From positions 372,001-436,000 of the forward strand of contig JAEPQE010000001.1 in the NCBI GenBank assembly GCA_017640665.1: a stretch of DNA of 64,000 nt, given 5' to 3'. Below, piece by piece: positions 26,611-56,859 of this stretch. The position numbers were made by a program, and so were the translations under genes. The notes under the pieces were generated by a model. The model had not been told where the DNA came from. It searched no databases and was given only the letters and a program-made list of their open reading frames with translations. Numbering within the stretch: the first letter of the stretch is position 1; each line of letters begins with the position of its first letter. Origin of the DNA: Balneolaceae bacterium. GTDB taxonomy: Bacteria > Bacteroidota > Rhodothermia > Balneolales > Balneolaceae.

Positions 26611-26721
26611 AGCCATCTCCAAACTTTATAAATTAAAACTTCTTTCAAGAAGACTAGTTCCCGCTCTTAAATAACTTTTCAAAAACCATAAATTTCACCG
26701 CATGAAAATGCTAAGATTTGA

Positions 26722-27193
26722 ATGACTAATATTGAATGGGGAATTACGAAGTACGAGTATTCTTTGACGCATTATTTCTCGCCGTCTTAATACTGGTGGT
26801 TAAAATTGAAATTAATTCATCGCACTCTTTGATAACCGGAATAACAGCTTTGGACTCAATTAATGGTTTTCTATCAATGATCTTTAAACAGACTAAGGTT
26901 TCTCTTAGCTCTTTCACCCCGATTTTTAATTTATGAATGAAATCATTTCTTGATTCTGCATCACAAGCCTCTGCATATTGAAAGGCAGGAGATGTCCCAC
27001 TTCGTACTATTTGTTTAGCAAAGTGTGTTCCTAAATAAGTTTTAGGTAAACGCTCACTGATATAAACGATCGTTAAAGCAAACCCGATTAAGCGCTCTTC
27101 TAAATCATATTTTCTTTTTGTATCCATTTTTATGTTTTGTTGTCTAGTTTCTTTTCGCTCGTTATTTGTAATTCCTTATTCAATATTCGTCAA
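26722..27193. repeat. inverted-repeat-bounded S23 element 1
   Basis: A 36-base left arm (26722-26757) and right arm (27158-27193) are inverted copies with 29 of 36 positions matching; the shared core includes AATATTGAAT and GGAATTAC. The arms enclose the S23 gene, the left arm covering its stop codon. The right arm ends three bases before the yifB stop codon. See the two similar units at 43284 and 56447. Confidence 0.75.
26744..27127 (-). CDS. four helix bundle protein (23S rRNA-IVP / S23 family)
   Basis: Small helical protein (127 aa) of the family first found as ORFs in 23S rRNA intervening sequences; structures are four-helix bundles that form pentamers, and the related Avd protein acts in diversity-generating retroelements. 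Family signatures: ERLIGFALTIVYISERLP, GTHFAKQIVRSGTSPAFQYAEACDAESRNDF in outline, and HKLKIGVKELRETLVCLKII. Compared with its two paralogues here it has a divergent first helix and a basic C-terminal tail (ARNNASKNTRTS). It lies inside an inverted-repeat unit and is not part of any rRNA gene. Function unknown. Confidence 0.88.
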   Translation of the reverse strand: MDTKRKYDLEERLIGFALTIVYISERLPKTYLGTHFAKQIVRSGTSPAFQYAEACDAESRNDFIHKLKIGVKELRETLVCLKIIDRKPLIESKAVIPVIKECDELISILTTSIKTARNNASKNTRTS

Positions 27194-27196
27194 TCC

Positions 27197-28738
27197 TCAC
27201 CCAAGCCACCCTTCTCTATCCAGGCTTCGATATTGAATAGCTTCGGCAATATGATGCGATTGAATATTTTCTGATTTATCAAGATCGGCGATTGTTCTTC
27301 CAACTTTCAGAATGCGATCATAGGCTCTGGCTGAGAGTCCCAATGAAGTAATTGCTTTCTTCAGGATCTCGGAACTCGTCTCATCCAACTCACATACTTT
27401 CCGAACCTGGCGGGTATTCATCTGGGCGTTAGAGTATACTCCTTTCAACCCAATAAATCGTCTGGATTGGATAGTTCGGGCTTCAATCACACGTTCTCGT
27501 ATTTCTTTTGAAGATTCACCTTTTGCTTTCCCGGAGAGCTCATCATAACTGACTTTATTCACTTCTATATGCAAGTCAATTCGATCCAACAATGGCCCAC
27601 TTATTTTACTCAAATAGCGCTGCATCTGAAGAGAAGACGTCCCGTTCATCTCTTGTGGGTTGTACCAGTCACCGGATGGAGATGGATTCATAGAAGCAAC
27701 CAACATCACTCTGCTTGGATAGGTAACACTCATCCTTGCTCTCGAAATGGAAACAAAACCGTCTTCAAGTGGCTGACGCATCACCTCTAGAGCACTTCGT
27801 TTGAATTCAGGCAACTCATCAAGAAATAGAACGCCATTGTGTGCCATTGATATTTCACCCGGCATCGGTATTCCTCCACCCCCAACCAGAGCAACATCTG
27901 AAACCGTATGATGCGGAGCTCTGAATGGCCGTGAAGTGATGAGTGCCTTTCCGGATTTCATCAAACCCGAAACAGAATGAACTTTCGTTGTTTCCAGCGC
28001 CTCATCTAATGAAAGTGGAGGAAGAATAGTAGGGATACGACGAGCCATCATCGTTTTTCCTGATCCCGGAGGACCGACCATCACTACATTATGACCTCCT
28101 GCTGCGGCTATTTCGAGTGCTCGTTTCACATTTTCCTGTCCTCTTACGTCACTGAAATCCAGTAAATCAGCCTGTCCGTTTTGGCTGAATACGTTTCCAA
28201 CATCAATATGGAAAGGATCCATACTTCCACGATTCTCTAACCAGTCTTTCACCTGATTTAAGTGCTCAAAAGGAAAAATCTCAATTCCCTCCACAACCGC
28301 GGCTTCCGCTCCATTCTCTTTTGGAACAATCAAATATTTAAAGCCACGCTTTTTGGCTTCTACTGCAACCGGAAGAACTCCTTTAATCGGACGAATTTTC
28401 CCATCTAATGCTAATTCACCTAGCATCACGGTTTCTTCGAGTTTTTCAGTGTGAATTTGCCCTGACATACGAAGCAACCCGATCGCAATGGGGAGATCGA
28501 AGGCATTACCTTCTTTGGGAAGATCGGCAGGAGCAAGGTTTACAGTAATTCTACCCAGAGGATAATAAGAACCTGTATTTCTGATAGCCGCTTCTACCCT
28601 ATCCCGCGATTCTGAAACGGCTCGGTCTGGTAATCCTACAAGAAAAAATTTTACCATTCCGTTGGTGTGATGGGTTTCTACATCTATGATCTTTGCATCA
28701 ACACCTACCGTTGATGCACAATAAACTCTGGCTAACAT
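27197..28738 (-). CDS. YifB/ComM-family Mg-chelatase-like AAA+ ATPase
   Basis: Member of the YifB family; ComM in naturally competent bacteria is a hexameric helicase that aids branch migration of incoming DNA. N-terminal LonC-like domain (ARVYCASTVGVDAKIIDVE, about 1-170), then Walker A VGPPGSGKTMMARR, Walker B GVLFLDELPEF, sensor MLVASMNPSPSGDW, and a C-terminal Mg-chelatase domain (GLSARAYDRILKVGRTIADL). The start at 28738 gives 513 aa, the usual length, and has GGAG six bases upstream; the longer frame to 28822 adds unconserved sequence. Its stop lies three bases from the S23 element arm. Confidence 0.92.
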   Translation of the reverse strand: MLARVYCASTVGVDAKIIDVETHHTNGMVKFFLVGLPDRAVSESRDRVEAAIRNTGSYYPLGRITVNLAPADLPKEGNAFDLPIAIGLLRMSGQIHTEKLEETVMLGELALDGKIRPIKGVLPVAVEAKKRGFKYLIVPKENGAEAAVVEGIEIFPFEHLNQVKDWLENRGSMDPFHIDVGNVFSQNGQADLLDFSDVRGQENVKRALEIAAAGGHNVVMVGPPGSGKTMMARRIPTILPPLSLDEALETTKVHSVSGLMKSGKALITSRPFRAPHHTVSDVALVGGGGIPMPGEISMAHNGVLFLDELPEFKRSALEVMRQPLEDGFVSISRARMSVTYPSRVMLVASMNPSPSGDWYNPQEMNGTSSLQMQRYLSKISGPLLDRIDLHIEVNKVSYDELSGKAKGESSKEIRERVIEARTIQSRRFIGLKGVYSNAQMNTRQVRKVCELDETSSEILKKAITSLGLSARAYDRILKVGRTIADLDKSENIQSHHIAEAIQYRSLDREGWLG

Positions 28739-28827
28739 TGGAACTCCGAATCTTTTTATATTGCTTTGCGTAGTTAGACCCCGCCGGAGGAAACTCCTTA
28801 CAAAAAATTTCATAAATTGCACATATC

Positions 28828-34245: not shown

Positions 34246-35370
34246 TTGATTATTGCTGTTCCAAAAGAAACAGCTGAACACGAACGGCGGGTTGCACTTA
34301 CTCCCGATGTCGCTGCTCAGCTTATCAAAAAAGAACTGGAAGTTTGGATTGAGTCAGGAGCTGGCTTAGAGGCTAATTTTCTGGATTCTGCTTATACAGA
34401 TGCAGGAGCCAAAATCATTTCCGATCGATCAGAGCTATTCCAGAAAACGGATATACTTCTTGCCGTTCAAACTCCGCCTCAAGAAGACTTAAAAAACCTT
34501 AAAAAAGACACCGTTTTAATCTGCTTCTTGTGGGCTCTGCAACATCCTGACCTTGTTGAGTCTCTGAAATCTTTCGGGATTTCGGCTATGGGAATGGATG
34601 CTGTTCCAAGAATTTCACGCGCTCAGAATATGGACGCTTTGTCTTCTATGAGTTCCATTGCAGGGTATAAAGCATCACTTATTGCCGCGGATACTCTGGA
34701 TAAATATTTCCCGATGATGATGACAGCTGCAGGCACCATCCCTCCTTCCAAAGCTCTGATTTTAGGTGCGGGTGTAGCCGGACTTCAAGCCATTGCCACT
34801 TGTAGAAAACTTGGCGCAGTGGTTGAGGCTTACGATGTTCGCCCGGTGGTAAAAGAACAAGTTGAAAGTTTAGGAGCCAAATTTGTGGAGGTCCCTTTAG
34901 ACGATGAAGACACAGAAACGAAAGGAGGATACGCTAAAGAGCTTTCCAAGGACAGCCAGGAACGCCAGAAACAAGTAATTGCTGAGCATGTAAAGAAATC
35001 GGATATCGTAATTACAACAGCATTAATTCCCGGGCGACCTGCTCCTCTTTTGGTAACAAAAGAAACCGTTGCGGGTATGAAACCAGGTTCCGTAATTGTT
35101 GATCTGGCAGCTGAAAACGGTGGGAACTGTGAGCTAACCGAAGCTGGAAAAACCGTAGTTAAGCACGGTGTAAATATTGTTGGACCAATTAATCTTCCAA
35201 GCCAGCTCTCTAACCATGCGAGCCTTTTATATGCAAAGAACATGCTCAATTTGTTGAACCTCCTGATCAAAGAAGGAGAAGCTAATTTCGATTTCGAAGA
35301 TGAAATTTTGTTGAACACCACCATCACACACAACGGAGAGATTATTTCTCCAATGGTTAAGAATAAATGA
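34246..35370 (+). CDS. pntAA: NAD(P) transhydrogenase subunit alpha, part 1 (NAD-binding)
   Basis: NAD(H)-binding domain I of the proton-translocating transhydrogenase, which uses the proton gradient to reduce NADP+ with NADH. N-terminal VPKETAEHERRVALTPD is diagnostic; the Rossmann loop is ALILGAGVAGLQAIATCRKLGA, with the adenine-ribose-binding acid in VEAYDVRP. RQKQVIAEHVKKSDIVI and PGSVIVDLAAENGGN follow. The start is TTG at 34246, supported by GGAGG six bases upstream. A split alpha subunit (as in Rhodospirillum) is shown by the next gene, with a hairpin in between. Confidence 0.95.
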   Translation: MIIAVPKETAEHERRVALTPDVAAQLIKKELEVWIESGAGLEANFLDSAYTDAGAKIISDRSELFQKTDILLAVQTPPQEDLKNLKKDTVLICFLWALQHPDLVESLKSFGISAMGMDAVPRISRAQNMDALSSMSSIAGYKASLIAADTLDKYFPMMMTAAGTIPPSKALILGAGVAGLQAIATCRKLGAVVEAYDVRPVVKEQVESLGAKFVEVPLDDEDTETKGGYAKELSKDSQERQKQVIAEHVKKSDIVITTALIPGRPAPLLVTKETVAGMKPGSVIVDLAAENGGNCELTEAGKTVVKHGVNIVGPINLPSQLSNHASLLYAKNMLNLLNLLIKEGEANFDFEDEILLNTTITHNGEIISPMVKNK

Positions 35371-35406
35371 ATTAGGAATTAGGAATAGGCATCCTATTCC
35401 TAATTC
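35369..35406. repeat. GAATTAG-repeat hairpin between pntAA and pntAB
   Basis: GAATTAG occurs twice in tandem, then GAATAGG, directly after the pntAA stop. The last two copies form one arm of a perfect 14-bp hairpin (35376-35389 with 35393-35406, loop CAT). No T-run follows, so it is not a standard terminator; it could set subunit ratios by mRNA processing. It resembles the word-like arms of the S23 elements. Confidence 0.8.
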
Positions 35407-37143: not shown

Positions 37144-37189
37144 AACATCCAACATCCAACATCCAACATCCAACATCCAACATCCAACA
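37144..37189. repeat. AACATCC heptamer tandem array
   Basis: Six exact head-to-tail copies of AACATCC (37144-37185) plus AACA, starting two bases after the pntB stop and ending 16 bases before the FKBP ATG. A 7-bp unit would slip easily in replication, so copy number may vary between strains. No hairpin potential. Confidence 0.95.
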
Positions 37190-42599: not shown

Positions 42600-43283
42600 A
42601 TGAAGTTACCCAGAAAAACAAAACAACAGAAAGAACGCGCACAGGAAATTTTAAATGAATTATATCAACATTATCCCAATCCACATTGTGAGTTGGACCA
42701 TCGGAATCCTTTTGAACTCTTAATAGCTACAATTTTAAGCGCCCAATGTACGGATGTTCGGGTAAATAAAGTGACTCCGAAATTATTTGAGACTTACCCT
42801 ACTCCAGAATTAATGTCGGAGGCTCCATTAGAAGAATTAGAAGAACTCATTAGAACTACTGGTTTTTTCCGAAATAAAGCCAAGTCGTTAAAAGAGACCT
42901 CTAAAACTTTAGTCGAGAATTTTGATGGCAAAGTACCGAAGAACATGGATGATCTACTCACATTACGCGGGGCGGCACGCAAGACAGCTAATGTTGTACT
43001 CGGTAATGCTTTTGGTATCAATCATGGAGTAGTGGTAGATACCCATGTTAAACGATTCTCGAACCGCTTTGGGCTCACTAAACATAAATCTAACACAGAT
43101 AAGATCGAGAGAGATTTAATGGCCCTATTTCCTCAGGAAAGTTGGACTGATTTATCTCATTTGATGATTCATCACGGTCGTGGTCCATGTAAGGCAAGGA
43201 TTTCGAAAGCACCGGATCACCCGTTATGTGTGAAGTACGGGAAGAATTGTGAGTGCCGGAAAATGCGGGAAAGAAATTCATAG
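42600..43283 (+). CDS. nth: endonuclease III (atypical HhH and Fe-S loop)
   Basis: Base-excision DNA glycosylase/AP lyase for oxidised pyrimidines. Clear Nth body: PFELLIATILSAQCTDVRVNK, and the catalytic Lys in RKTANVVLGNAFG and catalytic Asp in VVDTHVKR. Two features are unusual. The helix-hairpin-helix turn reads LRGAARKTA where LPGVGRKTA is usual. The C-terminal cluster cysteines are spaced C-x12-C-x6-C-x1-C (GPCKARISKAPDHPLC, then KNCEC) instead of C-x6-C-x2-C-x5-C, so the 4Fe-4S cluster may be bound differently or absent. The next element starts right after the stop. Confidence 0.9.
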   Translation: MKLPRKTKQQKERAQEILNELYQHYPNPHCELDHRNPFELLIATILSAQCTDVRVNKVTPKLFETYPTPELMSEAPLEELEELIRTTGFFRNKAKSLKETSKTLVENFDGKVPKNMDDLLTLRGAARKTANVVLGNAFGINHGVVVDTHVKRFSNRFGLTKHKSNTDKIERDLMALFPQESWTDLSHLMIHHGRGPCKARISKAPDHPLCVKYGKNCECRKMRERNS

Positions 43284-43697
43284 TGTTAAATGATAAATTT
43301 TAAATGGTGGTTATGAATTCTTTTGTGCTGTTTTTACAATTGAGGTCAAAATTCGAATTATCTCAGTTATATCGTTCAAATAGCTTGTATAGTCTCCTTT
43401 AACTAACTGGCTTTTTTCTAGTAGCCAGAGCCAATAACGAGTTTCTCTCGCCTCTTTTGATGAAATACTTATTTTGTGAGCAAAGTCCTTTTTGGTTTGG
43501 GCGGCCGTTGCTTCTTCGATATTTGCTCCTATACTCGTAGCAGAACGGAGTAATTGTTTTGAAATAACAAATTCTCTTTCCTGTTGAAGTATTTTGTACA
43601 ATTCAATAATACTTAGAGCAAAGCTAAAACTTTTGTTCTGTATAACATTTTTTGAACGCATAACCACCATTTAAAACTTATCATTGAGCATTTAACA
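43284..43697. repeat. inverted-repeat-bounded S23 element 2
   Basis: Inner arms of 26 bases (43290-43315 and 43659-43684) are inverted copies with one mismatch and share TTTTAAATGGTGGTTATG. Outer arms TGTTAAATG (43284-43292) and CATTTAACA (43689-43697) extend the stem, with extra bases on the right side only. The arms cover both the stop and the start codon of the enclosed S23 gene. The left end touches the nth stop codon directly. Confidence 0.85.
43311..43661 (-). CDS. four helix bundle protein (23S rRNA-IVP / S23 family)
   Basis: Second S23 paralogue, 116 aa. Shares with the copy at 56479 the blocks EREFVISKQ, TSIGANIEEA, KDF-HK, SISSKEARET and ILTSI-KT, and the two align without gaps from MRSKNVIQNKSF against MPKDNLIQQKSF. 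That alignment places the start at 43661; an ATG three codons upstream at 43670 is also in frame. The gene lies antisense to nth and the MEMO-family gene, inside an inverted-repeat unit. Probable RNA- or DNA-binding oligomeric helical bundle; role unknown. Confidence 0.9.
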   Translation of the reverse strand: MRSKNVIQNKSFSFALSIIELYKILQQEREFVISKQLLRSATSIGANIEEATAAQTKKDFAHKISISSKEARETRYWLWLLEKSQLVKGDYTSYLNDITEIIRILTSIVKTAQKNS

Positions 43698-43749
43698 TTA
43701 AGTAAGACCAAATAGAAGCAAAGTCCTTACAAATTTTCTACTTTTTTGG

Positions 43750-56404: not shown

Positions 56405-56446
56405 ATCTTTTTGTAAGGAATTCTCAGAATCTCGGTCTTACTTAGA

Positions 56447-56859
56447 AATTATAAATTTTGGATTCTGAATTTTGAATTATGCCTAAAGATAACCTTATAC
56501 AACAGAAAAGTTTCGATTTCTCTTTATTGATTATTCAACTTTATATACAGCTTATTGAAGAGCGTGAATTTGTAATATCAAAACAAGTTCTTAGAAGTGG
56601 TACGAGTATTGGAGCTAACATAGAAGAGGCTTTGGCAGGACAATCAAGAAAAGACTTCATTCACAAACTCTCCATATCCTCAAAAGAAGCAAGGGAAACG
56701 AAGTATTGGTTAAGATTACTCCAAAAAAGTGATCTTACTAAAATTGATGTCTCTACTCACTTACATGAGATTCAACAAATCGTTAATATCCTTACCTCAA
56801 TAATCAAGACGACTCAAGAGAATTCGAATTGAATAATTCAGAATCCAAAATTTATAATT
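56447..56859. repeat. inverted-repeat-bounded S23 element 3
   Basis: Perfect 25-bp inverted arms at 56447-56471 and 56835-56859 (core TTTTGGATTCTGAATT) enclose an S23 gene: the left arm ends seven bases before its ATG, the right arm starts two bases after its stop. The right arm ends two bases before the recN ATG, so it forms the recN leader. Total length 413 bases against 414 for the unit at 43284, but the arm sequences are unrelated. Confidence 0.9.
56479..56832 (+). CDS. four helix bundle protein (23S rRNA-IVP / S23 family)
   Basis: Third S23 paralogue, 117 aa. Blocks EREFVISKQ, TSIGANIEEALAGQ, KDFIHKLSISSKEARET and ILTSIIKTTQENS are shared with the copy at 43311, and more loosely with the one at 26744. 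It lies in the divergent space between rluD and recN and has the same direction as recN, with only 29 bases from its stop to the recN ATG, so the two could be cotranscribed. Helical RNA/DNA-binding-type bundle; function unknown. No reverse transcriptase or variable-repeat target is present, so it is not a retroelement accessory gene here. Confidence 0.92.
   Translation: MPKDNLIQQKSFDFSLLIIQLYIQLIEEREFVISKQVLRSGTSIGANIEEALAGQSRKDFIHKLSISSKEARETKYWLRLLQKSDLTKIDVSTHLHEIQQIVNILTSIIKTTQENSN

Follow-up and report, generated by a model that had tools for sequence, protein, structure and literature searches.

What is a gene of the S23 family doing in the spacer between nth and a MEMO-family gene, framed by a long inverted repeat? 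For decades, the only known setting of S23 proteins has been the intervening sequences (IVS) of 23S rRNA, of which they are odd passengers, and they are not known to possess nuclease or transposase activity. The window considered here, meaning the whole 64,000-nt stretch of Balneolaceae DNA that was analysed, gave no matches in Rfam and hence no match to an rRNA gene. A preliminary description, made from sequence alone, claimed that inverted arms enclose the S23 gene of this spacer, that the arms overlap both its start and stop codons, and that the unit starts immediately after the nth stop codon. All of this held, and the anatomy of the unit (Table 1) may be considered well supported; any mechanism remains inferred.

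Table 1. Positions within the window of S23 units, promoter-like motifs and solo 7-mer features.
Feature	Position	Strand	Remarks
Whole S23 unit in spacer between nth and MEMO-family gene	43284..43697	-	414 bases
S23 / 23S_rRNA_IVP gene	43311..43670	-	119 aa; alternative start at 43661; PF05635, E 2.6e-26; fold matches PDB 2rld
Arm at S23 3' end	43284..43320		TGTTAAA TGATAAA TTTTAAA TGGTGGT; holds S23 stop codon
Arm at S23 5' end	43654..43697		7-mers of the 3'-end arm plus one extra; holds S23 start codon(s)
Extra 7-mer of 5'-end arm	43682..43688		CATTGAG; bulge splitting off outer 9-bp arms
Promoter-like motif reading into nth-MEMO S23	43702..43731	-	TGTAAGG-N16-GTCTTAC
Sister S23 unit	56447..56859	+	413 bases; S23 gene 56479-56832; 25-bp perfect 7-mer arms
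Promoter-like motif upstream of sister S23 and recN	56412..56441	+	
Third, weaker S23 unit	26720..27195	-	S23 gene 26744-27127, directly behind comM (27197-28822)
Promoter-like motif upstream of comM and third S23 gene	28773..28802	-	
Solo 7-mer hairpin	35369..35406		GAATTAG array folding back on itself; no S23 gene
Solo 7-mer array	37144..37189		AACATCC x 6.6; no S23 gene

The first base of the unit directly follows the stop codon of nth (42600-43283). Its arms (43284-43320 and 43654-43690) pair in inverted orientation at 86% over 37 nt without gaps, and the outer 9-mer at 43284-43292 pairs with 43689-43697 if a 7-nt bulge is allowed, the two arms differing by exactly one 7-mer. The arms contain the stop codon as well as both possible start codons (43668-43670 and 43659-43661). 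The local pairing score of 52 may be compared to a mean of 20.8 (sd 3.8) for dinucleotide shuffles, none of which, out of 5000, scored as high. No target-site duplication or direct repeat was seen at the borders of the unit, and its gene carries no transposase or catalytic domain, PF05635, whose match exceeds the cut-off, being the only Pfam domain found. The structure model of the protein (pLDDT 91.8) resembles 2rld, a structure from the S23 family (E 9e-8), and to a lesser degree the Avd protein of diversity-generating retroelements (Foldseek TM ~0.7; 4dwl and 8ub7). The protein is a predicted four-helix bundle with the Avd fold. Both solved homologues, 2rld and 2gsc, contain five chains in each entry.

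The window contains two further units. The sister unit ends 2 nt short of the start codon of recN, and its arm, read in sevens, is AATTATA AATTTTG GATTCTG AATTTTG AATTATG. Its pairing score is 64, and that of the third unit (arms at 26720-26757 and 27158-27195) is 41, neither value being reached in 5000 shuffles. Tandem Repeats Finder, unprompted, reported period 7 at 43284-43306 and at 56454-56478. The third unit was missed by the preliminary description, as were the 7-mer make-up of the arms and the promoter-like motif that the units share. What it did claim of the first two units fared as follows. Their proteins are indeed paralogous (66% identical, both of PF05635), and their arms indeed share no sequence, resembling each other no better than chance (scores of 20.5 to 22). 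The lengths of 414 and 413 bases are confirmed, but their near equality is not evidence by itself, since it mostly reflects an S23 open reading frame of about 118 aa. The possibility that the nth-MEMO unit was recently copied from the S23 gene at the recN locus was also considered and rejected, its protein being 65-66% identical to all three of the recN-locus orthologues.

The remaining claim, that a repetition of this architecture exceeds chance, is strongly supported, not only by the shuffles but also by two larger samples. The first comprises 136 S23 genes from related genomes, mostly best matches to the family, so that the exact percentages should not be regarded as unbiased. The median flank pairing score of these units is 35, as compared to 19.5 for mismatched S23 flanks and 18 for other open reading frames of the same stretches, and a score of at least 32 is reached by 62.5% of the units, 3.5% of the mismatched flank pairs and 2.8% of the other reading frames. 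The second sample, 75 S23 genes found by scanning a single genome of each species, takes in Bacteroidota, Cyanobacteria, Verrucomicrobia, Planctomycetes, Clostridia, Chloroflexi, Acidobacteria and Proteobacteria, as well as candidate phyla (CPR) and archaea. Here the median is 37, against 17 for mismatched flanks, with 58.7% and 2.8%, respectively, at the score threshold. In both samples, the frequency with which the same base recurs at a lag of 7 is 0.37 to 0.41 (about 0.27 at most other lags), and the excess appears again at a lag of 14. In the genus, three species of which were compared, complementary runs of 7-mers flank most S23 genes, the letters differing each time. Enclosure of S23 genes by complementary arms of degenerate 7-mers is thus recurrent across phyla and not peculiar to two loci, although about 40% of S23 genes have no clear arms. 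The preference for a particular gap between the arms is only modest, the commonest length being 7 nt (125 units). I note separately that the arms in L216 have a period of 8 (AGTAGCTG), not 7, so the length of the block is not absolutely fixed.

How do the arms change over time? Close S23 orthologues have the same arm letters, mismatches included, while distant ones have other letters and keep the pairing. In 88 orthologous pairs, 323 columns had changed in both arms, as against 113 in which an old mismatch between the arms was shared. The count of two-sided changes leans upward, because the arms were chosen for pairing, but the trend with distance is independent of that choice. The clearest case is the recN locus, where the arms are kept in all three members of the genus that were compared, each with its own letters, and where nine two-sided changes separate L042 from L005. 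Between them, the recN species and the 88 pairs show complementarity maintained as the letters change. The architecture thereby passes, at recN, the condition set by the preliminary description, that arms should remain inverted repeats in relatives which keep the S23 gene; at nth-MEMO itself no relative with the two genes adjacent offers an S23 gene for this comparison. Arm similarity also tracks the similarity of S23 proteins across non-syntenic loci (Mantel r 0.16-0.17; 0 of 1000 permutations as high). The arms thus belong to the S23 gene, since their similarity follows that of the protein between unrelated loci. Inside single genomes, the link between arm and protein similarity held by one of two measures, and the cross-arm link to protein similarity was not significant. 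An arm sequence unrelated to S23 lineage was among the possibilities considered; it is rejected by the Mantel test.

Units can be present or absent at a given site. The spacer between nth and MEMO was compared across the 18 relatives in which these genes were found adjacent, and none of the 18 has S23 there. The S23-free spacers hold nothing, a palindrome (L010), 7-mer arrays (L021) or a RAYT gene (L015), and they are too different to have yielded a clean empty-site alignment at this locus. Two of them deserve description in their own right. That of the nearest relative (L010, genome G002) contains an unrelated palindrome, perfect over about 40 bases (AAATCCAGTAGGTGAGTTGCATGCAACTCACCTACTGGATTT), and no S23. 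In genome G005 (L015), the spacer is occupied by a RAYT-like gene that has inverted GTAGGGGCGAATCGCATTCGC repeats and shares the promoter-like motif of the S23 genes.

At another site, between fixC and fixX, genome G018 has S23, G058 has none (the two genes overlap as ATGA) and G064 retains an 11-codon remnant of S23. At two further sites (L097 and L069), S23 is present in G018 and the site is empty in G064. Filled and empty alleles of S23 sites therefore exist among relatives, with the direction of change unsettled for each site; loss occurs as well as gain, because G064 retains eleven codons of the gene. At the radC locus, two members of the genus have S23 proteins that share just 26% identity, a sign of either replacement or repeated insertion. 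A related observation concerns L105 (genome G073), which shares its locus and left flank with L098, L100 and L101: its S23 protein is 59% identical to theirs, which are 98-99% identical to each other, and one S23 seems to have been replaced by another. What has been seen in every case is presence or absence. No movement of an S23 unit was observed, and at least one decayed site is accounted for by deletion.

All three S23 units of the window lie behind a promoter-like motif, in the variants TGTAAGG-N16-GTC(T/A)(T/A)AC: alone in the case of the nth-MEMO unit, together with recN in the sister unit and behind comM in the third. Of the 136 S23 genes, 51 have TGTAAGG in the 150 nt upstream, which is about 90 times background (an expectation of 0.004 per 150 nt), whereas downstream the sequence is very rarely found. 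With at most two mismatches allowed, the complete motif, TTGTAAGG-N16-GTCTTAC, has 26-28 sites per genome, as compared to 9-12 for the reversed control pattern. The genes behind it encode ComEC (Pfam Competence), ComM, SSB, RadC, a non-specific endonuclease, RAYT transposases, GIY-YIG proteins and S23. This gene content, and nothing else, leads me to infer that the motif probably marks the competence regulon of Balneolaceae; induction during competence has not been shown. In six genomes, the motif precedes 16 of 27 small GIY-YIG genes and 13 of 24 Y1 genes, and inverted repeats bracket 17 of the former and 13 of the latter (7-8% in controls). Solitary GIY-YIG genes under the motif were seen in L178, L179, L181, L190, L194, L377, L389, L391, L395 and L401, bracketed by inverted dispersed repeats such as GTCATCCTGAACTTGTTTCAGGATCT or CACCCTGAGCG...TCGCGAAGGGTATCAA.

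The 7-mer arrays are also found by themselves. Away from S23 genes, 13 period-7 arrays were found in 800 kb of two S23-bearing genomes and none in 703 kb of four S23-free relatives, while other repeat periods showed no such contrast. The S23-free genomes represent three genera, so that few independent events lie behind the difference. Some solo arrays are complete hairpins, including one in the window (Table 1). A long solo array, TGCTAAT x 15, occupies positions 95-200 of L293.

The reading I prefer is that of a free-standing, IVS-like mobile unit of one gene, whose S23 protein would act on its own hairpin arms, likely in the single-stranded DNA (ssDNA) of competence. I would put it at as likely right as wrong, and its mechanism is inferred. 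The unit would consist of the S23 gene and the gene's own arms, which are self-complementary and built of degenerate 7-mers, and it would be an insertion in the spacer between nth and MEMO. Such units would spread rarely among intergenic sites; after settling, they would maintain the pairing of their arms as the letters turn over. The protein would most likely bind the 7-mer hairpin of the arms in ssDNA and, so bound, help the strand bearing the hairpin to be copied, excised or inserted. If one arm served as template for the other across the hairpin, then the matching of the arms, the gain and loss of whole 7-mers and the solo hairpins would all be explained. The ssDNA may be taken up from outside or formed in recombination, a possibility raised because S23 genes in Balneolaceae are driven by an apparent competence regulon. 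Binding by S23, the ssDNA substrate, hairpin-templated copying and movement by the S23 protein itself are all inferred, not shown.

The strongest rival, because the known IVS elements of 23S rRNA share the anatomy, is a free-standing relative of these elements that works at the level of RNA. Read-through transcripts, or the unit's own, would fold and be excised by RNase III, rendering the insertion harmless, and selection would act on RNA pairing. This is possible but the less likely reading. The IVS of Coxiella has the same anatomy (PMC4990558), the nth-MEMO unit folds as RNA with its ends paired (-105 kcal/mol), and the 5' arm lies between motif and gene, within the inferred transcript, in 15 of the 39 units that could be scored, as it does in the nth-MEMO unit. 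In the other 24, however, the 5' arm is situated further upstream than the motif driving the gene, and for this reason the arms are better explained at the level of DNA than of mRNA. Furthermore, the nth-MEMO S23 gene is antisense to both of its neighbours, and RNA selection alone leaves unexplained both the 7-mer periodicity and the restriction of solo arrays to genomes with S23. The transcript-level reading in the preliminary description therefore held only in part: the RNA folds, yet in many sister units the inferred transcript leaves out one of the arms. A role for the arms as an mRNA stem alone is unlikely, being set back by these same arm positions.

Two other explanations were weighed. 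The arms might be binding sites for S23, or terminators, that limit expression of the gene, with mobility playing no part. They do overlap the start and stop codons of the nth-MEMO unit, and the Avd-like fold of S23 is associated with nucleic acids, but the arms often lie outside the motif, their letters turn over between orthologues, and there are empty sites as well as recurrence at many unrelated loci; I consider autoregulation unlikely. Less likely still is that slippage-prone 7-mer hairpins are common between genes, and S23 genes are merely among those that happen to be flanked by them. In favor of such passive hitchhiking, 7-mer arrays and complementary stems are known without S23 (PMC4679880, PMC4476775), and there are solo arrays in the window itself. 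Against it, the rate of matched arms around S23 far exceeds that around other reading frames of the same stretches (62.5% versus 2.8%), S23-free genomes lack solo arrays, and the arms of a unit match each other but not those of other units.

To return to the mobile, ssDNA-based reading, a bolder form of it would have S23 units be widespread, undescribed one-gene mobile elements, whose protein recognises and maintains the 7-mer arms and seeds arrays in trans, and which in Balneolaceae form, together with RAYT and GIY-YIG cassettes, a guild of single genes within inverted repeats that rides natural transformation by means of a shared competence promoter. I lean slightly against it. More modestly, the recurrence of one design around S23 genes across much of the bacterial tree, in other letters each time, points to very small elements of one gene that form a class not described before; they are probably mobile and, in Balneolaceae, tied to what looks like the competence program. 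The 7-mer repeats of cyanobacteria and other organisms are not known to have an accepted origin, and the connection made here offers both them and the S23 proteins a single, testable cause. No report of a link between S23 genes and 7-mer repeats was encountered in the literature searched (most subscription journals were outside the search). The motif common to competence genes, RAYT and GIY-YIG suggests that unrelated minimal elements may exploit the same moment of ssDNA, in uptake or recombination, to spread or persist.

How, then, do S23 units compare with known systems? The IVS of 23S rRNA in Coxiella and Leptospira likewise has an S23 (PF05635) reading frame of about 120 aa, arms of about 28 bp and a total length of about 430 nt, and in Coxiella the loop that holds the reading frame is closed by a terminal stem of 28 bp, which RNase III cuts (PMC4990558). 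The S23 unit differs in lying outside rRNA genes, in having 7-mer arms and its own promoter-like motif, and in occurring many times per genome at unrelated intergenic sites. It is best called a free-standing variant of the rRNA IVS, not an IVS proper, because the defining location is missing. Compared with insertion sequences and MITEs, the unit has no transposase, no target-site duplication and no terminal repeats common among copies. With Avd the S23 protein has its fold in common but only about 15% sequence identity, and no reverse transcriptase is found beside the nth-MEMO unit, whose neighbours are nth and MEMO.

RAYT (TnpA-REP), with its REP and REPIN sequences, is likewise a single gene within inverted palindromic repeats, with solo repeats elsewhere (PMC3116915), and in relatives it has the same promoter-like motif as the S23 units. 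Unlike RAYT, the S23 unit has no Y1/HUH transposase, and its arm letters are its own, not those of one repeat family. By analogy, the relation of S23 to solo arrays resembles that of RAYT to REP, though the resemblance rests on few genera. Finally, the degenerate 7-mer arrays of the S23 arms are like those of the heptanucleotide repeats: the STRR sequences of cyanobacteria, the TAACTGA repeats known without S23 in Beggiatoaceae (PMC4679880), and the P6b element of the Nostoc tRNA-Leu intron, in which complementary classes of 7-mers, of origin stated to be unknown, pair into a stem (PMC4476775).
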